NCBI GenBank assembly: GCA_012269985.1
Contig: JAAXJF010000079.1
Span: forward strand, 1-53,501
DNA: 53,501 nt
Direction: 5' to 3'
Source of the DNA: Acidimicrobiaceae bacterium
GTDB lineage: Bacteria; Actinomycetota; Acidimicrobiia; Acidimicrobiales; Ilumatobacteraceae
Each line of letters opens with the position of its first letter. Positions within the stretch are counted from its first letter, which is position 1. This document shows, piece after piece, positions 12,446 through 38,693 of the stretch. A program made the translations under genes and the position numbers. The notes under the pieces were generated by a model. The model ran no database searches. It saw only the letters and a program-made list of their open reading frames with translations, and was not told the origin of the DNA.

Positions 12446-12492
12446 TGACGACTCCCGTGCATTCGCCGTTGAATACTGCTAGCGTTTGAACA

Positions 12493-12605
12493 GCATTCAG
12501 AGCGGTCGGAGTCGTAGTGCTCTTGGCCCGGCAACCTGGGTTCGCCCCCAAGGTGCTTGCACACGATGTGCGATGCGGTCGGATACCCGGCAAACCGGCG
12601 CCGAT
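12493..12605 (+). promoter_or_regulatory. SAM riboswitch (SAM-I/SAM-IV clan) before metX
   Basis: The leader folds into the SAM-clan core: closing stem GCATT (12493-12497) with GATGC (12572-12576), P2 AGAGC (12499-12503) with GCTCT (12519-12523), the conserved GGCCCGGCAACC junction, P3 ACCTGGG with CCCAAGGT, and P4 GCACA-CGA-TGTGC. A GC-rich 3' tail (GGTCGGATACCCGG onward) may form the extra pseudoknot of SAM-IV-type elements common in actinobacteria. Its place just upstream of a methionine biosynthesis gene fits repression by S-adenosylmethionine. Exact subclass and ends are uncertain. Confidence 0.8.
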
Positions 12606-12657
12606 TCGCTCAGATGCACAGTGTTGTTGTGTTGCTGAACGCGAGGAGGTGAAGGAA

Positions 12658-25301: not shown

Positions 25302-26906
25302 TCACTCGAGATGTTCGAGTTCGTTGTTGTTCCACATTTCGACGAGACGGAACTTTTGAATTTTCCCCGATCCGGTAAGGGGAAACTCGCTGGTCGTAAA
25401 CCAACTGGCTGGGGTCTTGTGGGGTGCGAGATGTTCGCGTACCCATGCGCGAAGTTCAGCAACTGGCGGGGACGCGTCAGGGGTTGGTCGTATAACTGCA
25501 CCAACGGTTTCACCCCATTTGTCGTCGGGAAGACCGATCACTGCGACCTCACCGACCGAGGGGTGACGGAACAACACCTCCTCGATCTCTTTCGGATAGA
25601 TGTTTTCGCCCCCGCGAATGATCATGTCTTTGATTCGGCCAACGATGTAGCAATACCCGCGCTCGTCCATCGAACAGATATCACCTGAGTGCAGCCACCC
25701 GTCAGAGTCGATGGTTTCTTCTGTCGCTTCAGGATTGTCGTTATAGCCCAGCATGTTGAGATATCCGCGAGTACAAAATTCTCCGGGCTCACCGATGGGG
25801 ACCGTATTCCCATCCGGATCGACGATCTTGATTTCAACGTGGGGGAGTGCAGTACCGAGGCTGTTCGCTTTGTCGTCGACGCCGTCATCAGGTCGCGTCA
25901 TTGTTGCGACGGGCGACATCTCTGTCTGGCCGAAGACAATGGTTAGTTTCGCCCCGACCTCGCGTTCGAAACGCTCGACGAGGGCTGCGGGCACTGTAGA
26001 TCCCCCCGAGGTAATCGTCTTCAACGCGGAGAGGTCACGGTCTTTGAACGTTGGGTGCTCCATCATTGCGATGAGCATCGTCGGGACACCACCGCCGAGG
26101 GTGACGCCGTACTTTTCGAATGTATCGAGCACGTGGCCGGGCTCGAATTCCTCGATGATCACAATCGTCAGCATTCGTGTACCAGCGGCGAGCACGGCCA
26201 ACACAGATCCGCCGGTGTGAAAGAGCGGCATCGCTCCCAACATGACGTCGCCCGGCTTGCTCCCATTGCGAAGGGTGCTGTGCAGCGCATTGGTAACGAT
26301 CCCTCTGTGATGCAGGCTCGCCCCTTTCGGGAAGCCGGTCGTTCCCGAGGTGTACTGAATCATGACGAGGTCGCCCGGGTCGGGGTTTGGTAGCGGTGTT
26401 GTTGACGACCTTGCATGTTGAGCGACAGAGGTGAGCTCACCCAACGAAGACACCTCACGAACCGACGGGCACCGTTCCATGAGTTGCTCAGCAATGCTCA
26501 TGAGATTGCGGCCGCGGTAGCTGGTCGATGCGATTACACCCACCGATGTCGACTGGTTGAAGACGTACGCCGCTTCGTCTTCAAGGAGATTTGGGTTCAC
26601 AGTAACTATCACCATTCCGGCGAGAGCGATTGCGTACTCGGCAATGACCCACTCAGGAAGATTCTGTGCCCAGATCGCAATGCGGCTGCCGGGTTCAAAC
26701 CGTTCAACCAGATCACGAGCCACAGCCTCTGCATCTGAGAGCAATTCGGCGAACGTCCATGTCGCTCCCGTGTTGGATGCAACCAGCGCAGGTTGATCCG
26801 GACGCTCAGATGCGGCGCGTCGGAGGACATCGCCAAGAGTGAGATCAAGGATTGCAGGCTCGCTCGGGCCAATGGTGTGGCTCATCGTGAGTGGTGGAGT
26901 TGTCAT
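25302..26906 (-). CDS. AMP-forming acyl-CoA synthetase
   Basis: A 534-aa ANL-superfamily ligase that activates a carboxylic acid through an acyl-AMP to acyl-CoA. Complete motif set: P-loop 'YTSGTTGFPKGA', 'FGQTEMSP', 'GEFCTRGYLNMLGY', 'GWLHSGDICSMDERGYCYIVGR' with hinge 'KDMIIRGGENIYPKEIEE', and catalytic Lys in 'LTGSGKIQKF'. AAAGGATG precedes ATG 26906. It is the natural intact comparison for the TAG-interrupted synthetase at 16336-17904. It lies between an enoyl-CoA hydratase and an amidotransferase in one operon. Confidence 0.93.
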   Translation of the reverse strand: MTTPPLTMSHTIGPSEPAILDLTLGDVLRRAASERPDQPALVASNTGATWTFAELLSDAEAVARDLVERFEPGSRIAIWAQNLPEWVIAEYAIALAGMVIVTVNPNLLEDEAAYVFNQSTSVGVIASTSYRGRNLMSIAEQLMERCPSVREVSSLGELTSVAQHARSSTTPLPNPDPGDLVMIQYTSGTTGFPKGASLHHRGIVTNALHSTLRNGSKPGDVMLGAMPLFHTGGSVLAVLAAGTRMLTIVIIEEFEPGHVLDTFEKYGVTLGGGVPTMLIAMMEHPTFKDRDLSALKTITSGGSTVPAALVERFEREVGAKLTIVFGQTEMSPVATMTRPDDGVDDKANSLGTALPHVEIKIVDPDGNTVPIGEPGEFCTRGYLNMLGYNDNPEATEETIDSDGWLHSGDICSMDERGYCYIVGRIKDMIIRGGENIYPKEIEEVLFRHPSVGEVAVIGLPDDKWGETVGAVIRPTPDASPPVAELRAWVREHLAPHKTPASWFTTSEFPLTGSGKIQKFRLVEMWNNNELEHLE

Positions 26907-26941
26907 GGAGTCATCCTTTCGGTGTTATCGCCAGTCATCAT

Positions 26942-27802
26942 CTATCGAGATGATCCTCGTTCGCCGTAATCACCGAATGGCCGATCACGTTCTCGAACAG
27001 CTTCTCGAAAGCCGACATCTTCTGAGCGAGCGACGAAGTCTTTTCCTTCTTGGCTGTGCCGAGCGACTCCATCGAAGAGAGTTCCGAGCCGTCGAGACGC
27101 CGGCGGGTCATACATATGGTCAGCGACCGCATTGAGCGATCTCGTAATCATTTCGAGTTGGTTGGTTGGCACTTGAGCGATTCGTGTTGCGAGTGCCCAT
27201 GCGTTGTCGGCGAGGTCATCATCGGCTGAGACCTGAAGGACGAGACCCATATCAAGGGCCATTTGGGCGGTGATCTCGTCGCCGGTGAGCATGTAGCGGC
27301 GCGCCTGTTGCAGCCCCATTCGAGCAACCCATGTCCACGGCGCTTCAGGGATGCCCCACACCCGAGATGGCGGGTAGCCAAATCGCGCTGATTCTCCTGC
27401 GATGATCATGTGAGCGTTGAAGACAATGTTGCTGCCCCCGGCGATACACCAGCCGTTCACCGCTGCAATCGTGGGCTTTATCGAGTCGTGCAACTTTGCC
27501 CAGGTCACCGCGAATTCGCCGATCATATGAAGGTCAGATGCTGAGTCCCACGCCCGGGAGTTTTCGGCCTGTTCATCATCTGCCTGCTCACCAGTCGCCC
27601 AGCCAAGGTCGTATCCGGCGCAAAACGCTGGGCCCTCGGCGTTGAGTAGGAGCACGCGAATACTGTCATCGTGCTGAGCCGAATCGATTGCGTCTGCGAG
27701 CTCATCTCGAAGCTGTGGAGTGATGGTGTTGTATTCGACGGGACGACACAGCGTCATGGTTCTCACGCCTGCATCATCAGTTATCCGAACGGCATCCCCC
27801 AT
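26942..27802 (-). CDS. enoyl-CoA hydratase/isomerase (crotonase family)
   Basis: A 286-aa crotonase-fold enzyme with oxyanion-hole segments 'EGPAFCAGYDLGWA' and 'VNGWCIAGGSNIVF' and the later 'YPPSRVWGIPEAPWTW' region. It is first in a minus-strand operon with the acyl-CoA synthetase 35 bp downstream, which suggests activation and beta-oxidation-like processing of one acid. Stop codon TAG at a natural end. Confidence 0.88.
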   Translation of the reverse strand: MGDAVRITDDAGVRTMTLCRPVEYNTITPQLRDELADAIDSAQHDDSIRVLLLNAEGPAFCAGYDLGWATGEQADDEQAENSRAWDSASDLHMIGEFAVTWAKLHDSIKPTIAAVNGWCIAGGSNIVFNAHMIIAGESARFGYPPSRVWGIPEAPWTWVARMGLQQARRYMLTGDEITAQMALDMGLVLQVSADDDLADNAWALATRIAQVPTNQLEMITRSLNAVADHMYDPPASRRLGTLFDGVARHSQEGKDFVARSEDVGFREAVRERDRPFGDYGERGSSR

Positions 27803-29583: not shown

Positions 29584-30894
29584 ATGACAGAAGGCGGAAC
29601 ACATCAACGGCCTCCATCGGTGGACGCTCTCGCCCGCTCACTTGCCGGTCAATTTGAACTTCCGCACGCCGTGCTGGTCGACTGTGCTCGACATGCAGTT
29701 GACCAGCAGCCTGATGACTATGAGGAAGCGGCCCGACTACTTGCAGAGCAGTTGTACTCCTCGTTGATTGGTGAGGTCATTAATGCGACGGGCGTGCTGT
29801 TGCATACAAACCTTGGACGGGCGCCGTATCCAACTCAACCGAGTTCGCGGGCAACCTCAGTTGAATTCGACCTTCTCGACGGAGTTCGGGGCTCGCGTCA
29901 TACGGGGATTGCATCGCTACTTCGGATCTTGACAGGGGCCGAGGACGCGCTTGTCGTCAACAACAACGCATCAGCGGTGCTTCTCGTGCTTTCAGCTCTT
30001 GCTGAGGGTCGCGGGGTGGCAGTCTCCCGTGGCGAAAGTGTTGAAATTGGGGGCGGCTTTCGCGTGCCAGACGTCATGCAGCGATCTGGAGCGCGGCTCG
30101 TCGACGTCGGTACGACCAACCGGACGCGACGCGCTGATTACCAACAAGCTTGCGATGTCGCCGAACACGACATCGCCATGGTGTTAAAGGTGCATCCATC
30201 CAACTTTTCGGTCGAAGGATTTGTCGAAGCTGCGTCGGTGCGAGACCTTGCCGACTTAGAACCAGTACTTGCGGTTGATCTCGGATCAGGCCTCCTCGAC
30301 TCAGAGGCGCCCTGGTTGCCGTCAGACATGCGACCGTTTCCCTCATGGATTACCGATGAGCCCTCGGTGAAGCAAAGTATTGATGATGGCGCCGACATCG
30401 TGATGTTCAGTGGTGACAAGTTGTTGGGAGGGCCACAGTGCGGCATCATTGCCGGTCGCTCAGATCTCATTGAGCGGTGCGCCCGCCACCCATTGATGCG
30501 AGCGCTCCGCCCCGGTCATCACGCGCTCGTTCCTCTTCAGCAGGTGTTGATGTCGTATCTCAACCGAACGGCTACCAACGACATTTTGTTTTGGAAGATG
30601 GCAAGCACGTCACCCAACGATCTCGCAGCTCGCGCAGAACGAGTAGTTGTGCAGGCCGGTCGTGGAGAGGTGCGGGAATCGCTGGCAGTGGTGGGAGCCG
30701 GGGCTGCCCCAGCGGCGACGCTGCCGTCACGTGCCGTCGTCGTGCAGGGTGATCGGTCTGACGAACTTCGCCAGGCACTTCCGTTTCCGGTGATTAGCCG
30801 AGTAGCTGACGGTTACACCTGGATCGATTTGAGGTCGGTTGATCCATCTGACGATGACAACATCGCCCAGGCGCTCGCCGCGCTGGAAGGTTGA
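29584..30894 (+). CDS. selA: L-seryl-tRNA(Sec) selenium transferase
   Basis: A PLP enzyme of 436 aa that converts Ser-tRNA(Sec) to Sec-tRNA(Sec) with selenophosphate. Family landmarks are 'INATGVLLHTNLGRAPY', 'NNNASAVLLVLSAL', 'SRGESVEIGGGFRVPDV', and the PLP-binding Lys279 in 'FSGDKLLGGPQCGII'. It is followed by selB with 1 bp between stop and start, and tRNA-Sec lies just past selB. selD, needed for selenophosphate, is not in the window and must be elsewhere. Confidence 0.96.
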   Translation: MTEGGTHQRPPSVDALARSLAGQFELPHAVLVDCARHAVDQQPDDYEEAARLLAEQLYSSLIGEVINATGVLLHTNLGRAPYPTQPSSRATSVEFDLLDGVRGSRHTGIASLLRILTGAEDALVVNNNASAVLLVLSALAEGRGVAVSRGESVEIGGGFRVPDVMQRSGARLVDVGTTNRTRRADYQQACDVAEHDIAMVLKVHPSNFSVEGFVEAASVRDLADLEPVLAVDLGSGLLDSEAPWLPSDMRPFPSWITDEPSVKQSIDDGADIVMFSGDKLLGGPQCGIIAGRSDLIERCARHPLMRALRPGHHALVPLQQVLMSYLNRTATNDILFWKMASTSPNDLAARAERVVVQAGRGEVRESLAVVGAGAAPAATLPSRAVVVQGDRSDELRQALPFPVISRVADGYTWIDLRSVDPSDDDNIAQALAALEG

Positions 30895-30895
30895 C

Positions 30896-32590
30896 ATGGC
30901 GGTCATCGCCACCGCAGGCCACATCGACCATGGCAAGTCAGCTCTCGTTCGGGCAATGACGGGCATCGAGCCCGATCGATTCGAGGAAGAACGGCGACGG
31001 GGTCTCACGATTGATCTTGGCTTTGGGCACGTCGCCGCGGGAGATGGCACTGTGCTCGACATCGTTGACGTACCAGGTCACGCTGACTACCTGAAGACGA
31101 TGATCGCCGGCATGTCGCACGCTTCGATTGCGTTGCTTGTCATCGATGCAGTCGAGGGATGCCGGGCGCAAACTCGTGAACATCTTGCGGTCATCGATTC
31201 GATCAGGCCGTTAGCCGGAGTTGTTGCGCTGACCCGAGTTGACCTTGTAAGCGCTGACCGCAGAGTAGAGGTTGAGAGAGAAGTTGACGAACTACTTGCC
31301 TCGTCACCTATTTCGTGGTCGCGCCCGCTGTGTACCTCAGCAGTAACCGGAGAGGGCATTGAGGCTCTCGTCGACACGCTTGCGCAAACAGTACGGGAGG
31401 TCGAAGCGAGTGAGCAGACGTTGACTGAGTTGCCGGCACGTTTGTTCGTCGACCGGGTGTTTTCAGTGAGCGGCGCGGGAACCGTGGTGACAGGAACATT
31501 GTCGTCAGGGTCAATATGTACCGGAGACGAGTTCGTTATCGCGGGAACCGTTCAGAGTGTCAGCGTGCGGTCGGTTCAGCGACACGGCACCAACTGCGAC
31601 CACATTGCTGCGGTGAGACGAACGGCTATCAATCTTTCTGGTGTCTCAGCCACCGACTTAGGTCGCGGCGATGTCATCGTTGCCGCAGCACGTTGGATTC
31701 ATACCGATGTTGTTGATGTGCACGTTGAACTCCTTGAAGGAGCAACGATCAGAAATGGCAAGGGCTTTAGCGCTCATATCGGCTCGGCGCGCAGGGATAT
31801 CACTCTTCGCCCTGTCGGAGGCCCCGATGGCGCTCAACGAGGGTGGTTCCGGATGCGTTTCCCGAACGCGTTGCCTCTCGCTCCAAGCGATCGATTTCTG
31901 CTGAGAGACAACGGCTCTGGGGTGGTCGTCGGTGTTGCGACAGTTTCCGATGTCTCACCGGTCGCCGCCCCGTCTCGCGCAACTCCAGACGGCTCGATCA
32001 ACCAGCAACTGATTCATCATGGATGGGTGACCATTGAGCAAGCCGAGCGTCTCACCGGGCGTGTTGTGGAGCCTTACGTTGGGCGATGGACTGCGGCGAA
32101 GAGTGTGATCGATGAGTCGATTGCGACCCTGCGTGAACGTCTCGCTCAGTCGACGATCGAGACAGCGGAGTGCACCGAGGTTGAGCGGGCACTTTTGCAG
32201 ACGATGGAGGGTGTTGTCATCGAACACGGTGCAGCGAGAATCGGTGAATCAGACCCGGCACTCGAGTCCCCACTGGTTGACCGACTACTTGCCGAGGGAG
32301 TCTCCACCGGTCCGATCGAGGTGAGCGATCGAAAGGTTGCTGCTCGACTCGTCCGTCTCGGTGTGCTGGTGAGTCACGACGATGTCTACTTCCATGTTGA
32401 TGTCATCCGAAGTCTTGAACCGATTCTCGAGGTGCTCTGGTCGGCCGACCCAGATGGATTTACGGTGGCAGAACTTCGCGACGCTCTTGGCGTGACCCGC
32501 AAACATGCTCTTCCACTTGCGAATTGTCTCGACCAGATGAGGATCACTCGCCGTGCCGGTGACCGAAGGGTTCGTGGACGTGGTGAATAG
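30896..32590 (+). CDS. selB: selenocysteine-specific elongation factor
   Basis: A 564-aa GTPase that delivers Sec-tRNA(Sec) to the ribosome at UGA codons with a SECIS hairpin. G1 is 'GHIDHGKS' at residues 8-15, G3 'DVPGH', then elongation-factor beta-barrel domains ('RLFVDRVFSVSGAGTVVTGTL') and a C-terminal third made of winged-helix repeats that bind the SECIS RNA. ATG 30896 matches the family start; an upstream frame extension inside selA was rejected. Stop codon TAG. Confidence 0.96.
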   Translation: MAVIATAGHIDHGKSALVRAMTGIEPDRFEEERRRGLTIDLGFGHVAAGDGTVLDIVDVPGHADYLKTMIAGMSHASIALLVIDAVEGCRAQTREHLAVIDSIRPLAGVVALTRVDLVSADRRVEVEREVDELLASSPISWSRPLCTSAVTGEGIEALVDTLAQTVREVEASEQTLTELPARLFVDRVFSVSGAGTVVTGTLSSGSICTGDEFVIAGTVQSVSVRSVQRHGTNCDHIAAVRRTAINLSGVSATDLGRGDVIVAAARWIHTDVVDVHVELLEGATIRNGKGFSAHIGSARRDITLRPVGGPDGAQRGWFRMRFPNALPLAPSDRFLLRDNGSGVVVGVATVSDVSPVAAPSRATPDGSINQQLIHHGWVTIEQAERLTGRVVEPYVGRWTAAKSVIDESIATLRERLAQSTIETAECTEVERALLQTMEGVVIEHGAARIGESDPALESPLVDRLLAEGVSTGPIEVSDRKVAARLVRLGVLVSHDDVYFHVDVIRSLEPILEVLWSADPDGFTVAELRDALGVTRKHALPLANCLDQMRITRRAGDRRVRGRGE

Positions 32591-32597
32591 CGATAAG

Positions 32598-32690
32598 CGG
32601 AGGTGGACGGGAATCGAACCCGCCGGACGGAGTTCATCCGTCCCAACCGTGTTGAAGACGGCGGAGCCCACCAGGCGCTCGGACACCTCC
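32598..32690 (-). tRNA. selC: tRNA-Sec (UCA)
   Basis: A 93-nt tRNA on the minus strand: acceptor GGAGGTG pairs with CACCTCC plus discriminator G, the anticodon loop CTTCAAC carries TCA at complement 32653-32655, a long variable arm GGACGGA/TCCGTCC has 7 bp, and the T-arm holds TTCGATT. Acceptor plus T-stem total 13 pairs (7+6 by my fold), the hallmark of bacterial tRNA-Sec. CCA is not encoded. It is transcribed against selB and the following genes, so its promoter must lie inside the start of the thioredoxin-like gene. Confidence 0.95.
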
Positions 32691-32713
32691 ACTTCGTAGG
32701 GTACCGTTGTCAT

Positions 32714-34174
32714 ATGCCGTCCCCAGCACAAGAACTTTCCTCCACAGATCTCACTGACGGGCTCACTGTCGTCGTGAAACGAGATTGTGAGACCTGTCAG
32801 ATGGTCGAGCCCGTGATCGCGGAGATCGCTTAGGTTCGTCACATCCGGGTGATTTCGCAAGATGATCGGTCATTTCCGGGTTCAGTCGATCGCGAACACG
32901 ACGACGAACTCGCATTCTCTTGGCATCATGACATCGAGACGGTGCCGACGCTCATCAAGGGGAGCTCGCAGTCTGAAGACGAGCGAACGGTCGGCTGGTC
33001 GCAGGCGGAATGGCAGCGGATCACCGGCATTGATTCTTTAGGGGCTGACCTTCCCGTGATGCGGCCCGGGTGCGGTTCAATGAGTGTTGACCCGAATCTC
33101 ATCGACACATTGCGTGCACGTTTTGCAGGTGACGGGCTTGCGGCCCGAGAAGTTGAATTTGCGCAGGCGGAAGACCCGTTTGAAGCGATGTTCGAACGCG
33201 GGTGGACCGATGGGCTTCCGGTTGTTCCTCCCACGCGGGAGCGGGTGTTGCAGATGTTGGAGGGAACGACGCGAGCACCTGATGAGGTGGTTGCGGTCGC
33301 TCCTCCTGACCTCGTCGAACTTACGGTGGAAAAGATCGCAGTGAACGCGGTGATGGCCGGATGCCGCCCCGAGTATCTACCGTGGGTGATCGCTGCGATT
33401 GAGGCCGTGTGCAATGACACGTTCAACATGCATGGTCTTCTTGCAACGACGATGCCGGTGGGGCCGGTGTTGATTTGTAACGGGCCTGGTACGAAGGCCA
33501 TTGGGATGAACTCAGGAATCAATGTGTTCGGTCAAGGAAACCGAGCCAATCTCACTATCGGTCGAGCTGTTCAACTCGTGATCCGAAACGTTGGCGGTGG
33601 CCGTCCAGGTGAAGTCGATCGCGCAACTCACGGAAGTCCTTCGAAGATTTCGTTCTGCTTCGCCGAAGACGAGGCGGGTTCACCATTTCGCCCACTGTCG
33701 GTGCAGCGAGGAATCGACGAAGGTGTTGACGCGATCACCGTGTTTGCCGGCGAGGGCCCAAAATGCATCGTTGACCAACTCGCCCGAACTCCAGAACAAC
33801 TCATTGCGACCCTTGCCGACGCGTTGATGGGGCTTCATCACCGCAAACTCGTCGTTGGATTCGACGTCGTGCTGGTGGTGAGCCCCGATCACTCTCGTAT
33901 CTTCCACGAGGCGAAGTGGAGCGATCCTGAGGTTCTCGAAGCACTGTATGCCGCAACTGCTCGACCTGGTGCTGAACTAGTGAGAGGCGTTGGTGGCATC
34001 GCTGAGGGTGTGCCGGAAGGATTTGGGGAAATACCTTCACTGCCCAAGTTTCGACCCGACGGAATACTTCTGGCCCACGCCGGAGGGGGAGCGGGCTTGT
34101 TCTCTTCGATGATCGGCGGTTGGGTAAACGGAGAGATGGGTAGTGACCCTGTCACCGTCGAGGTTCGTCCATGA
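32714..34174 (+). pseudogene. thioredoxin-like fusion protein interrupted by one in-frame TAG
   Basis: The frame from ATG 32714 encodes a thioredoxin-like domain with redox pair CETC (Cys25, Cys28), meets TAG at codon 40 (32831-32833), then continues without frameshift into the second half of the same domain ('VISQDD', then 'IETVPTLI' with the cis-Pro loop). A larger domain follows (about residues 155-486), with 'DGLPVVPPTRERVLQMLEG', a conserved-looking 'MAGCRPEYLPWVIAAIEA' and a Gly-rich C-terminus; I cannot name its fold or function. A GTG at 32849 could restart translation but would lack the CxxC. Its position between tRNA-Sec and the UGSC selenoprotein suggests it serves that pathway. 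The TAG may be a mutation, an error or a readthrough site. Listed as a pseudogene by default. Confidence 0.75.
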
Positions 34175-34204: not shown

Positions 34205-34726
34205 GTGAGCGAGAATCTTGTCCTCGACCCGACCGCAGAGCGTGCCCCGGCGACGCGCACGCGGCTTGCAAGGCCAGAGTCACTAGATGGTCAGACCATT
34301 GGCCTTCTCGATATCTCGAAGCCACGCGGTGATGTGTTTCTTGATGAGATCGAGCGGCAACTGGTCGAGCGTGGCGCAAAGGTTCAGCGCTACAAAAAGC
34401 CGACGTTTTCAAAACCTGCCCCGGTCGACCTTCGGCACGAGATTGCAACGCAATGCACGCTGGTGATCGAAGCCCTAGCTGATTGAGGCAGTTGCACGTC
34501 GTGCAGTGTGCACGACATCGCTGATCTTGAAAGTCGTGGAGTGCCTGGTGTGTTCGTTGCGTCAAGCGAGTTTGTGAGTGGTGCGGATGCTCAATCTGCA
34601 GCGCTCGGATTTCCCGATGTGGCGCGCATTTTTGTTGAACACCCGATTCAAGACCGCACCGATGACGAAATGCGGGCCATTGCCGCTGGTGTGATTGACT
34701 CGGTCATCAGCGAAATTATCTCCTGA
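34205..34726 (+). CDS. UGSC-motif selenoprotein (UGA decoded as Sec)
   Basis: The frame from GTG 34205 runs to UGA at 34484-34486 and then continues in the same frame to a TGA stop at 34724-34726, giving 173 residues with Sec94. The context is D-U-G-S-C-T-S-C-S-V-H, matching the known UGSC-motif selenoprotein family, in which U-x-x-C is the presumed redox pair; Cys97 and Cys100 are beside it. A SECIS-like hairpin follows the UGA at the expected distance, and selA, selB and tRNA-Sec are adjacent. The rest is a compact alpha/beta protein with 'TIGLLDISKPRGDVFLDEIE' near the start and 'VFVASSEFVSGA', 'GFPDVARIFVEHPIQD' after the Sec. Conventional gene calling would split it in two or end it at the UGA. 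Substrate unknown; redox role inferred. Confidence 0.93.
34498..34516 (+). promoter_or_regulatory. bacterial SECIS-like hairpin
   Basis: GTCGTGCA (34498-34505) and TGCACGAC (34509-34516) form a perfect 8-bp stem with a 3-nt GTG loop (or 6-7 bp with a wider loop). The stem starts 11 nt after the UGA of the UGSC gene, the spacing at which SelB recruits Sec-tRNA in bacteria. It lies inside the coding sequence. Confidence 0.85.
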
Positions 34727-34796: not shown

Positions 34797-35588
34797 ATGA
34801 GCGAAGCAGTCACAAAAGTTTCGATTGGCGACAATCTCGACTGGCCCCAAGTGGTCGACGACCTCAATCGTTTGTTGCGTCTTCGCACGACACCGATCGG
34901 GATGAAAATGTTTGCAACCCGTGACGAAATGGAAGCAATCCCAAAGATTCGCCGACCGCAATCAATCCACACGACAGACCAAATCGTCGGTCAGGCAAGT
35001 CGACTCGGTTGGACTGTCGGAATCACCGTGGAGGACCTCGTTGGCGATCAGTGTTCAACCGTTATCGGCCTGCATCCTCGTGACGAAGAATGGCTCTCAG
35101 GTGAACGCATGGCGGGGGTCTGGTACGAAACTCTCGAGGACGCATCTGCGCATCAACATTCGATGACGACAGTGCCGTTTGGACAGTACGAGGCGATGGC
35201 AGTATCACCGCTCGCGAGCGGCCGACTCAGCCCACCAGATATCTGTCTCATTTATGCGACTCCTGCCCAGATGATTTTGTTTATCAACGGGCTCCAATGG
35301 ACAGGGTTCAAAAAACTTGAGTGGGGTTGTGTTGGCGAGTCATCTTGTGCCGACTCCTGGGGGCGGGCGCTCGCAACTGGTGAACCAAGTCTTTCTATCC
35401 CGTGTTTCGCAGAGCGGCGGTATGGCGGTGTCATGGAAGACGAACTACTCATGGCGATTCCGCCGCGCTTTTTGCCAGGAGTGATCGCTGGCCTCGAATC
35501 GCTATCAAAAAATGGACTGCGGTACCCGATTCCGCCATACGGGGTGCAATCTGATGCCACGGCGGGTCTTGGCCGAAGCTACGGGTGA
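34797..35588 (+). CDS. DUF169-type protein
   Basis: A 263-aa protein with the layout of the DUF169 family: 'RTTPIGMKMFATRDEM' near the start, 'SCADSWGRALATGEPSLSIPC' with spaced Cys, and 'DELLMAIPPRFL' near the end. The family is uncharacterised; it is often found near redox or C1 enzymes (general knowledge, not proven here). ATG 34797 has a strong GGGAGG ribosome site; a longer frame from 34695 overlaps the selenoprotein end and was rejected. The gene sits between the UGSC selenoprotein and fdhD in the same orientation. Confidence 0.8.
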   Translation: MSEAVTKVSIGDNLDWPQVVDDLNRLLRLRTTPIGMKMFATRDEMEAIPKIRRPQSIHTTDQIVGQASRLGWTVGITVEDLVGDQCSTVIGLHPRDEEWLSGERMAGVWYETLEDASAHQHSMTTVPFGQYEAMAVSPLASGRLSPPDICLIYATPAQMILFINGLQWTGFKKLEWGCVGESSCADSWGRALATGEPSLSIPCFAERRYGGVMEDELLMAIPPRFLPGVIAGLESLSKNGLRYPIPPYGVQSDATAGLGRSYG

Positions 35589-35629: not shown

Positions 35630-36436
35630 GTGACCACGCGACCTCTTCATGGACGAGCACGTCGCCATGCGGCCGATCGTCATACGAGCGGGTGGTCGGT
35701 GCAGTCCGAGGAGTGGCTCGTCGTTGAACAGCCACTCGCAATCCACGTCGATGGTGAAATCGTTGCAACGACAATGTGCACACCAGATGACCCAGCCTCG
35801 TTAGCCGTTGGGTTTTGCATCGCTGAGGGAATGCTTGATCGAGACGTCACCGCCGGGGTTTCCGTAGATCGCTCGGGCCCGACGGTGACCGTGCACGTAG
35901 AGACAGGCCACCTGCCGGGCTCATTTTCCGCGCGCCTCGGCACTGTTTCATCGTCGTGCGGGGCATGCGGTACTGCTGACATGGCGGCCCTTGTTGCAGG
36001 TGTGGCAGCAGTCGATGCAGGACGGCAACCCGACGGCGATGTGGTTTCTGCGGTCGCATCGAACCTTCGCTCTCAGCAAGAGGTATTCGCACTAACCGGA
36101 GGTTCTCATGCTGCGGCGGCAGTGACCGTCGATGGTCAGGTTGTTGACATCGCGGAAGATGTAGGCCGGCATAACGCGGTCGACAAAGTTGTCGGCCATC
36201 TGTATAACAGCGGTCGGCTGCCTGCGACCGACCTCATGCTCGTCATCAGCGGACGCGCAAGTTTTGAAATGGTGCAGAAGGCGTGTGCAGCAGGGTTTGG
36301 AACGCTCATCGCAGTGAGCGCTCCGTCGTCCCTTGCCGTCGATGCTGCCGGGCGCGCGGGACTGCGTCTCATCGGGTTTGCCCGCGACGATCGGTTTACT
36401 GCGTACGTCGACCCTTCATCCCCGCCGACGTATTGA
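35630..36436 (+). CDS. fdhD: formate dehydrogenase accessory sulfurtransferase
   Basis: A 268-aa protein that transfers sulfur to the molybdenum cofactor of formate dehydrogenases, needed for their activity. The catalytic Cys pair is in 'SSCGACGTAD', and the family signatures 'GGSHAAA', 'EDVGRHNAVDKVVG' and 'SGRASFEMVQKA' are all present. GTG start. It precedes the molybdoenzyme gene by 7 bp, its obvious client. Confidence 0.95.
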   Translation: MTTRPLHGRARRHAADRHTSGWSVQSEEWLVVEQPLAIHVDGEIVATTMCTPDDPASLAVGFCIAEGMLDRDVTAGVSVDRSGPTVTVHVETGHLPGSFSARLGTVSSSCGACGTADMAALVAGVAAVDAGRQPDGDVVSAVASNLRSQQEVFALTGGSHAAAAVTVDGQVVDIAEDVGRHNAVDKVVGHLYNSGRLPATDLMLVISGRASFEMVQKACAAGFGTLIAVSAPSSLAVDAAGRAGLRLIGFARDDRFTAYVDPSSPPTY

Positions 36437-36443
36437 GAACACG

Positions 36444-38693
36444 ATGATTTCGTGGCGCCCCCTACGTCTGTGGCCTTGGCGATGGCACCTACGTCGCCCT
36501 CGACCATCACTATGGGTGAGTTGGCGACCGAATGGCATCGGGCTCGTGAAGCCGAATCACTATGGCGAGATGCTTCGAACGGTGTGGGCAAACCGTCGTA
36601 ATTTGAAGTACGGATGGAACGTTCTTACCAAGGGGGCCTGTGATGGGTGTGCTCTTGGCGTGGCCGGGCTTCACGACTGGGGGCAAGACGGCATCCACCT
36701 GTGCAGCACGCGACTTCGGTTGTTGGAGTTCAATACCGCTGGCGTGATAAATGCTGATGCGTTGTCGGATGTTGCATCGATCGATCATCTCGACGGGGCA
36801 AGATTGCGAGAACTTGGTCGACTCGGCTACCCAATGCGACGACGGGCGGGAGAGCGCGGGTTCTCGGTGGTGAGTTGGGATGAGGCGCTATCGCTTACCG
36901 CCGATGCAATTCGTTCGACCACGCCCGACCGGGTTGGGGTGTACCTCACGAGTCGAGGGCTGACGAACGAGGTGTATTACGCCGCAGGGAAGGCTGCGCG
37001 TTCGATGGGTGTTGCATCGATCGATTCGGCGGCTCGTGTGTGCCATGCGCCATCGACGGTGGGGTTGAAAGCAACGATCGGTGTTGCGGCAACGACGTGT
37101 TCGATGGAAGACATCATTGCGTCTGACCTGGTCGTGATTTGGGGCGCAAACCCTGCGGCAAACCAGCCGGTGTTCACCAAGTATCTCTATCTTGCGAAGG
37201 CCAGAGGGTGCAAAGTTGTGGTCGTCAATCCGTTGCTTGAACCGGCTCTCGACAGATATTGGGTTCCGAGCAATCTTGAGTCCGCGGTATTCGGTACGCA
37301 ATTGTGCGACCTGCATGTGCCGGTGCGCCCTGGGGGAGACGTGGCGCTTGCCCAAGCGGTCCTCAAGCGACTAGTCGAGAAGAATTCAGTCGACGTTGAG
37401 TTCATTGAACAGTGCACTACCGGGTGGGCCGAACTCACCGAGCAATTGAATCGCCTTGATAAAACTGATCTGCTCGCAGTATCTGGTGTCGACGCCGGCA
37501 CGGTTGAGGCACTTGCTGATCTTTACTCGACAACAGAGTCGGCCATCTTCGTCTGGTCGATGGGCATCACGCAACGTTCTGATGCGGTCGATGGTGTTCG
37601 GGCGATCGTGAACCTTGCTCTTTCTCGAGGAATGATCGGGCGCGATGGGGCAGGCCTCATGCCCATCCGAGGACACTCTGGGGTGCAGGGAGGTGCCGAA
37701 ATGGGGGCGTATGCAACTGCGCTCCCGGGCGGCGTTGACCTCAGTGATGAGAACTGTCGTTCATTGGGTGACAAGTGGGGGTTTGAGATCCCGCGAGAAC
37801 CAGCGCGGACTGCACCTGAATTGGTCGAGGCTGCTCTGTCCGAAGAGATCGACGTGCTGTTGCTCTCAGGCGGCAACATGGTCGATGTCTTGCCTGATCC
37901 ACAGCGAGTGTCATCGTCGTTGTCGAAGGTGAAGCTACGAGTGCATCTTGATGTCGTCGCAACAACGCAGATGCTTGTTGACGGTGAAGACGTGCTGGTT
38001 CTGCCCGTGCGAACCCGCTATGAGCAAGAGGGCGGAGGCACGGAGACATCGACAGAGCGCAGGATTATTTTCTCCCCCGAGATTCCTCGCACTGTTGGAA
38101 CGGCAAAGAGCGAGTGGCGTCTTTGGGGCGAAATTGCGAGCAGAGTTAACCCCTCGCATCACGACCTCTTCAACTGGAGCGATAACCAGCGCCTTCGCGC
38201 CGAGATCGCCGAAGTCGTGCCGGCCTATGCCGGAATTGAAGGCCTTTCTTCGACTGGAGATTCAGTGCAGTGGGGTGGCCGTCATCTGTGTGCCGGAGGA
38301 AAGTTTCCGACCGCAGATGGGAAGGCCCGATTCACAACACCTACTGCGAGGCCAGTGACTCTCCCAGATGGTGCATTCATGCTGTCGACGCGACGCGGCA
38401 AGCAGTTCAATTCGATTGTGCATGGTGCTCGTGACCCCCTCACCGGAACGGCCCGAGACGCAGTGTTTATGAATCGGGTCGACGCGACTCGTCTTGGTCT
38501 GAGCAGCGGTGACCCAGTGGTGCTTGAATCTCCGGCAGGACATTTCGATGGAACCGTTCACCTTGCCGATATTGCTCAGCAGTCGCTTCAGGTCGTCTGG
38601 CCGGAAGGCAACGTGTTGATGAGTGCGGGGGTGTCTGATAGCGAAAGTGGGATACCGGATTACAACGCCGTCGTGACCGTCCGGCCCCGGTAG
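36444..38693 (+). CDS. FdhF/YdeP-family molybdopterin oxidoreductase
   Basis: A 749-aa molybdopterin enzyme of the formate-dehydrogenase-like FdhF/YdeP branch. The N-terminus has only a CDGC pair (Cys66, Cys69) in 'TKGACDGCALG', as expected for this branch. The molybdenum-ligand position is Cys200 (TGC) in 'ARVCHAPS', where classical FdhF has Sec in ARVUHGPS, so this is not a selenoprotein. Later motifs 'IWGANPAANQPVF', 'MGITQRSDAVDGVRAIVNLALSRGMIG' and a C-terminal domain ('RRGKQFNS', 'DYNAVVTV') are intact. ATG 36444 follows the fdhD stop by 7 bp; an earlier in-frame ATG lies inside fdhD. Substrate may be formate or another small molecule; unknown. Stop codon TAG. Confidence 0.9.
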   Translation: MISWRPLRLWPWRWHLRRPRPSLWVSWRPNGIGLVKPNHYGEMLRTVWANRRNLKYGWNVLTKGACDGCALGVAGLHDWGQDGIHLCSTRLRLLEFNTAGVINADALSDVASIDHLDGARLRELGRLGYPMRRRAGERGFSVVSWDEALSLTADAIRSTTPDRVGVYLTSRGLTNEVYYAAGKAARSMGVASIDSAARVCHAPSTVGLKATIGVAATTCSMEDIIASDLVVIWGANPAANQPVFTKYLYLAKARGCKVVVVNPLLEPALDRYWVPSNLESAVFGTQLCDLHVPVRPGGDVALAQAVLKRLVEKNSVDVEFIEQCTTGWAELTEQLNRLDKTDLLAVSGVDAGTVEALADLYSTTESAIFVWSMGITQRSDAVDGVRAIVNLALSRGMIGRDGAGLMPIRGHSGVQGGAEMGAYATALPGGVDLSDENCRSLGDKWGFEIPREPARTAPELVEAALSEEIDVLLLSGGNMVDVLPDPQRVSSSLSKVKLRVHLDVVATTQMLVDGEDVLVLPVRTRYEQEGGGTETSTERRIIFSPEIPRTVGTAKSEWRLWGEIASRVNPSHHDLFNWSDNQRLRAEIAEVVPAYAGIEGLSSTGDSVQWGGRHLCAGGKFPTADGKARFTTPTARPVTLPDGAFMLSTRRGKQFNSIVHGARDPLTGTARDAVFMNRVDATRLGLSSGDPVVLESPAGHFDGTVHLADIAQQSLQVVWPEGNVLMSAGVSDSESGIPDYNAVVTVRPR

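Follow-up and report, generated by a model that had tools for sequence, protein, structure and literature searches.

The window analysed here, a 53,501-nucleotide stretch of DNA from an Acidimicrobiaceae bacterium (contig JAAXJF010000079.1), carries a gene for a UGSC-family selenoprotein together with a partner gene just upstream. The near-constant presence of this neighbour and a distant likeness of the UGSC protein to the selenocysteine (Sec) domains of glycine and D-proline reductase (GrdB/PrdB) suggest, on the basis of sequence comparison, that the UGSC protein is half of an enzyme. In the whole reading, to which we give a probability of roughly 0.45, the UGSC selenoprotein would belong to a two-subunit selenium-dependent reductase that is GrdB/PrdB-like and recycled by thioredoxin. 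The partner gene and the GrdB/PrdB likeness go beyond the first-pass annotation of this DNA, and the new results are the profile likeness between UGSC and GrdB/PrdB and the finding that a partner gene almost constantly accompanies UGSC. UGSC proteins rank among the most abundant selenoproteins of aquatic metagenomes. With the tie to a partner and to the reductases, what had been a "redox protein of unknown function" would become a complex of two proteins, open to expression, purification, and assay with a defined electron donor.

The UGSC gene and its in-frame UGA

The UGSC gene lies on the plus strand (34205..34726, stop codon included). From the GTG at 34205 to the stop ending at 34726 the frame holds a single in-frame TGA, codon 94 (34484..34486), and reading it as Sec gives a protein of 173 residues with the sequence ADUGSCTSCSVHD around Sec94. 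The read-through protein matches the NCBIfam model NF041046, "UGSC family (seleno)protein", with 162.7 bits (cut-off 125) and the Pfam model PF24696 with 164.7 bits (cut-off 25), and it carries the [U/C]GSC motif, with Sec or Cys, that marks the family. By these matches, the gene is a full-length member of the already named UGSC family. The in-frame UGA, the UGSCTSC sequence, and an 8-bp perfect hairpin 11 nt after the UGA are all present as the first-pass annotation had described them, and its description of UGSC as a recognised selenoprotein motif agrees with the matches of both models over their cut-offs.

The "UGSC-containing protein" family was described in the 2008 Global Ocean Sampling (GOS) selenoproteome survey, a table of which counts 255 UGSC Sec forms (PMC2398784), and a passage of a 2026 review places UGSC among the selenoproteins with largely uncharacterised biological functions (PMC13188914). 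Among the named relatives found, the closest is PBWL01000012, an Acidimicrobiaceae MAG with 98% over the UGSC protein. The window gene shares with the known family the full-length match, the UGSC motif, and the presence of Sec in most members and Cys in few. The gene itself is no different from the known family; what the window adds is a locus in the order selA-selB-tRNA-Sec-partner-UGSC.

The use of the UGA has been followed in 81 genomes, the own genome and 80 relatives, searched with PF24696. The search gave 87 matches in 56 of the 81 genomes, and 80 of the 87 have exactly one in-frame TGA. The TGA is at the Sec site in all 30 loci read at this position (L002-L005 and L007-L032) and in 9/9 divergent paralogues, a statement whose scope is those reads rather than all 87 matches. 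The seven matches without a TGA comprise three that stop short of the site, two weak ones below the cut-off, and two with Cys. Cys stands at the Sec position in G066:C8 and G059:C83, and three more Cys forms come from a sample of the phylum described below (G223, G351:C2, and G178:C15). Homologues with Sec or Cys at the site were looked for and found, their proteins run through the UGA, and what the first-pass annotation had said would speak against it, homologues ending at the UGA or nothing conserved after it, did not occur. Homologous protein thus flanks the in-frame UGA on either side, as expected of a bacterial selenoprotein gene. A plain list of open reading frames does split the frame at the UGA, in keeping with the earlier claim that ordinary gene calling would miss the gene; on the other hand, curated NCBI and Pfam models cover it. 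The same split is what favours a true stop followed by a chance open frame. This explanation is most improbable, given that protein and hairpin are conserved after the UGA in aligned relatives, that natural relatives have Cys codons at the site, and that NF041046 and PF24696 span it.

A redox centre made of U-x-x-C with Cys100 nearby had also been proposed, and its two parts fare differently. Cys97, the Cys of UxxC, is kept in sets of 24 and 41 members and in 9 divergent paralogues; paralogue sets selected on GSC cannot test the conservation of Cys97 and were not used for it. Cys100, in contrast, is not family-wide; at this residue Gly, Trp, Ser, Tyr, Arg, or Ala is found in the paralogues.

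Selenocysteine machinery, SECIS hairpin, and surrounding genes

The genes for Sec synthesis and insertion lie within 5 kb upstream of the UGSC gene, as had been stated from the sequence alone. They are selA (29584..30894, plus strand; TIGR00474, 390.4 bits, cut-off 267.9), selB (30893..32590, plus strand; TIGR00475, 276.8 bits, cut-off 242.25), and a tRNA-Sec gene with the anticodon TCA (32597..32690, minus strand; Rfam RF01852, 63.4 bits, gathering score 47), which separates selB from the partner gene and runs opposite to both. SelD is encoded on another contig of the same genome (G000:C96, 332.5 bits, cut-off 125), and the genome therefore has SelA, SelB, SelD, and tRNA-Sec, the complete set expected alongside a bacterial selenoprotein gene. 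The tRNA-Sec gene and the start codon of the partner gene are head to head, ~24 nt apart (window 32597-32714), so a promoter region common to both is possible.

The bacterial SECIS hairpin (34498..34516, plus strand) begins 11 nt after the UGA and has the sequence GTCGTGCA-GTG-TGCACGAC, with eight perfect pairs and a GTG loop. It has been compared in 80 sequences, the window and 79 of 80 contig loci; L142 was left out as its contig ends too soon. All eight pairs form in 80/80 sequences, with G-T counted as a pair, and the GTG loop is present in 80/80. One stem pair varies as a compensatory series of G-C (71), G-T (7), and A-T (2). The mean synonymous entropy of the seven hairpin codons is 0.10 bits, where the codon use of the set leads one to expect 1.50; for 41 other conserved codons of the same sequences it is 1.32, with 1.49 expected (Mann-Whitney p 2.7e-5, for sequences that are not independent and were picked by peptide and TGA patterns). 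Since the loci were picked by patterns containing the peptide and the TGA, the comparison tests synonymous constraint and not the use of the UGA. By this measure, the SECIS hairpin is under strong selection among close relatives, and the earlier claim that the gene has its own SECIS element is borne out by the constancy of pairs and loop and by near-zero synonymous change. Decoding of the UGA at 34484 as Sec94 by SelB, tRNA-Sec, and the hairpin at 34498-34516 is strongly supported by these sequence features.

Further from the window, the picture becomes less uniform. Three distant paralogues (L164, L167, and L177) keep all eight pairs, with one C-G/G-C pair exchanged. In the register of the main hairpin, 22 further Sec forms have eight pairs in seven cases, seven in three, six in four, five in five, and four in three, while the five natural Cys forms have 1, 3, 4, 4, and 5 pairs. 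The Cys form of G066 folds another strong hairpin. Cys forms therefore do no more than tend to lose the SECIS, and the contrast between Sec and Cys forms is weak, because the ranges of pairs overlap and G066 has its strong hairpin. As a control, this tendency is weakened, as divergent Sec paralogues also leave the register of the main hairpin; these divergent Sec forms may use a shifted hairpin. The own genome holds a second UGSC gene (L183, G000:C87:426-2062) of the UGSCTSG type. The partner that follows it lacks the thioredoxin domain, and the hairpin of this UGSC copy differs from the main type.

Other genes surround the locus. A DUF169 protein is encoded directly 3' of the UGSC gene (window 34797-35588); its cluster occurs in 7/80 loci, and the protein is therefore probably not part of the UGSC system. 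Beyond the locus, window 35630-38693 encodes FdhD and a molybdoenzyme of the formate-dehydrogenase-like kind (TIGR01701); the molybdoenzyme is probably not a selenoprotein since its frame is open without a UGA. A SAM-I-IV riboswitch is found at window 12488-12607 (47.8 bits). Among the MAG contigs that carry the locus in other genomes, L115, L118, L098, and L114 are titled Bifidobacterium breve, Ferrithrix, or Acidimicrobium, and these titles look doubtful.

The partner gene and its association with UGSC

The partner gene (32714..34174, plus strand) was characterised by profile, structure, and genome searches. It encodes a thioredoxin-like N-terminal domain with a CETC motif, followed by an unnamed domain of ~370 residues (33065..34171, plus strand) in which DGLP and AGC motifs are seen by alignment. 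The best PDB profile matches of the N-terminal domain are thioredoxins (E 6e-4), and against thioredoxin-fold structures it gives Z 9.5. The unnamed domain has no match over the curated cut-offs in Pfam or NCBIfam (in Pfam, for the paralogues), and a single Cys is nearly invariant in it among 15 aligned members. Many paralogue partners lack the thioredoxin domain and keep the unnamed domain. The unnamed domain may be the "Unknown_1" fusion domain of the 2008 survey. The parts of the literature consulted (PMC2398784, PMC9312934, PMC13188914, PMC7539508, and PMC12176620) contain neither a tie between UGSC and GrdB/PrdB nor a name for the partner, and either may be in print.

The window copy of the partner gene has an in-frame TAG (32831..32833, plus strand) inside the thioredoxin-like domain. 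Matches in 52 other genomes cover the site, and none of the 52 has a stop there (counted by eye). The TAG could represent either a true nonsense allele or a mistake in the assembly. Close relatives have intact partner copies, and the unnamed domain could, judging from the frame, still be made from a GTG at 32849. Recoding of the TAG with the help of the neighbouring tRNA-Sec has been rejected because that tRNA reads UGA and because no covering genome has a stop at this place. A TAA was flagged in the second own copy as well; it falls outside the open frame of that copy (998-2062).

Two candidate relationships of the partner have been tried and rejected. Foldseek put class I fumarases first (E 1.3e-3, probability 0.85), and a fumarase-like partner was dropped with a control-level profile score of 21.0, inside a control range of up to 24.1. 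Of the two profiles used in this test, the first was narrow. The second combined E. coli FumA and TtdA with 3 earlier loci and with those 23 of the 30 new loci for which the motif filter gave a sequence; the other 7 were dropped. A GrdE/PrdA-like partner scored 24.8 against four PF09338 members, barely above the best control of 24.1 and therefore too weak for a claim of kinship between the partner and PF09338.

The association of the two genes has been examined at two scales. At the larger scale, an even draw of 296 Actinomycetota genomes was searched, with UGSC matches taken over the cut-off and partner matches at E < 1e-50; two genomes with weaker UGSC matches and one with a weak partner match were dropped. 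UGSC is found in 22 of these genomes, the partner in 23, and both in 22 (tables compared by eye), the remaining genome, G254, having partners without a detected UGSC. A partner lies within 300 bases, on either side, of 32 of the 35 UGSC matches over the cut-off, the exceptions being G125:C612, G178:C23, and the fragment G030:C68. In the 81 genomes, UGSC is found in 56, the partner in 57, and both in 55 (again compared by eye). The partner occurs by itself in G018, near a contig end, and in G040, as a partial match, and a UGSC fragment by itself in G065.

At the level of single loci, 73 of 80 contig loci have a partner match, which ends at most 140 nt upstream of UGSC in 71 of them (not in L108 and L125). 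Five of the seven loci without a match start within 400 nt of a contig end, and L098 and L129 had room for one; the partner is thus missing or not adjacent despite room in four of the 80 loci (L098, L108, L125, and L129). When the neighbour genes of the 80 loci were clustered, the partner was the one clear functional neighbour to emerge. A single open frame in G059:C83, of which 580 residues were translated, joins a Cys-type UGSC domain (residues 19-188, E 4e-12) and the partner domain (224-509, E 9e-45), in this order. Taken together, co-occurrence, adjacency, and this one natural fusion strongly support the view that UGSC and the product of the upstream gene are two subunits of one enzyme. 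The G059 genome has ten UGSC and ten partner matches, some of them fragments at contig ends, and one of them is the Cys-type fusion.

Likeness to GrdB/PrdB and the proposed reductase

In GrdB/PrdB, the selenocysteine lies just past the end of PF07355, the Pfam GRDB model. A GrdB/PrdB profile was built from proteins of relatives, 12 of them PrdB-like and 3 of them GrdB, the latter represented by their C-terminal parts. In hhalign, a diverse UGSC profile matches it with Prob 91.9, E 6.9e-7, and a score of 48.7 over 81 columns, and the alignment places Sec on Sec. The 31 neighbour families that served as controls (from 34 clusters, with UGSC, its antisense frame, and the partner left out) have a mean score of 15.2, a standard deviation of 2.9, and a maximum of 20.2. 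Masking the columns of residues 94, 97, and 100 leaves a score of 35.6, still above the control maximum of 21.1. Smaller profiles give weaker matches, with Prob 18 for PrdB-like proteins alone (smaller first alignments) and Prob 25 for the three GrdB alone. UGSC thus appears to have a Sec domain homologous to that of GrdB/PrdB, with Sec in the matching position; the likeness is distant, at the level of profiles, and makes the two domains remotely akin.

The shared part comprises ~80 residues with Sec on Sec and a UxxC(xxC) motif; part of a review describes UxxCxxC for GrdB (PMC13188914), and this is also the motif of the window UGSC. The differences are equally clear. PF07355 has no match in the window protein or in the other 23 UGSC members scanned, the pyruvoyl subunit PF09338 was not found in the own genome (G000, about 94% complete), and UGSC has a different, unnamed partner, here with a fused thioredoxin-like domain. 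Membership in GrdB/PrdB is not shown, and UGSC is not filed there, because of the missing PF07355 match and because no PF09338 subunit was found in the genome. PF09338 occurs in 4 of the 81 genomes, a small number, and none of the four has UGSC. The own genome also encodes a PrdB-like selenoprotein (L236, G000:C47, about 26733-27400) with an in-frame UGA at about 27147 in the context PVUPLCTRT. Like UGSC, this protein has a Sec domain of the same kind, with a UPLC motif; unlike UGSC, it matches PF07355, has Pro-Leu in place of Gly-Ser, and has no UGSC partner in the surrounding 4 kb.

We propose that UGSC works like the Sec domain of GrdB/PrdB and that the unnamed domain of the partner would hold the substrate. 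Sec94 would act as the nucleophile that attacks the bound substrate, and Cys97 as the resolving Cys that closes a selenenyl sulfide with Sec94, Cys100 being optional. The thioredoxin-like CxxC domain of the partner would then reduce the selenenyl sulfide, a task that could fall to free cellular thioredoxin in paralogues without the fused domain.

The UxxC motif, the thioredoxin-like CxxC domain of the partner, and a peroxiredoxin gene near one paralogue (L181) are also compatible with UGSC being a thioredoxin-like thiol-disulfide oxidoreductase or peroxidase-like protein, with the partner as a thioredoxin-fused reductant or client and no bond cleavage on a small substrate. The section of the 2008 survey that deals with UGSC expected a thioredoxin-like fold (PMC2398784), which agrees with this explanation. 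However, the likeness to thioredoxin lies in the partner, whose N-terminal domain likewise has CxxC and has thioredoxins as best matches, while a profile comparison of UGSC with that domain revealed no likeness (score 13.0, at the control level). The confident model of UGSC (pLDDT 91.3) is a five-stranded alternation of strands and helices with Sec94 between strand 86-92 and helix 95-110. The 50 rows listed from a PDB fold search are mostly generic Rossmann-like folds and contain no thioredoxin, although this listing does not exclude them. Among PDB sequences, neither UGSC by itself nor its profile had a match at E 10. In view of the profile score, the strand-helix model, and the many paralogue partners that keep the unnamed domain and lack the thioredoxin domain, we consider the oxidoreductase explanation rather unlikely.

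The top row of the fold search, with Z 11.9 (rmsd 2.8, 126 residues; the next row has Z 10.4), is a putative chain of the methyl-coenzyme M reductase activation complex, a complex with [8Fe-9S-C] clusters according to a part of PMC12176620. This match, NifU-like genes near L164, L181, and L250 (the L181 match being below the Pfam cut-off), and the weak class I fumarase matches that Foldseek gave for the partner would fit an iron-sulfur or other metal enzyme, or a system handling metalloclusters, with Sec94 and Cys97 as ligands. Rossmann-like folds, however, commonly give Z values this high, the fumarase profile score of the partner stays within its controls, the unnamed domain has only one nearly invariant Cys, and no NifU is present among the annotated genes of the window, part of which was annotated. 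We consider a metal-based role for the pair quite improbable.

The GrdB/PrdB-like reductase may extend beyond this locus. More tentatively than for the window itself, we suggest a new class of two-subunit selenium-dependent reductase, in which a GrdB/PrdB-type Sec domain would have been freed from the pyruvoyl system and joined to a substrate subunit that is unrelated and brings a thioredoxin of its own. Such a class would be common in aquatic Actinomycetota, with the habitat taken from record titles, and would have multiplied for different substrates, as in the genome with ten family matches. The neighbours of some paralogues, chosen examples and not counts, bear on what these substrates could be. 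In G223, a Cys-type pair is directly followed by genes for a CoA-transferase III and an acyl-CoA dehydrogenase; a TRAP transporter lies near a paralogue in G193, an enoyl-CoA hydratase near the second UGSC copy of the own genome, and a thiolase and an acyl-CoA synthetase near a paralogue in G059. The acyl-CoA genes near several paralogues give a hint of organic-acid catabolism, with no substrate named.
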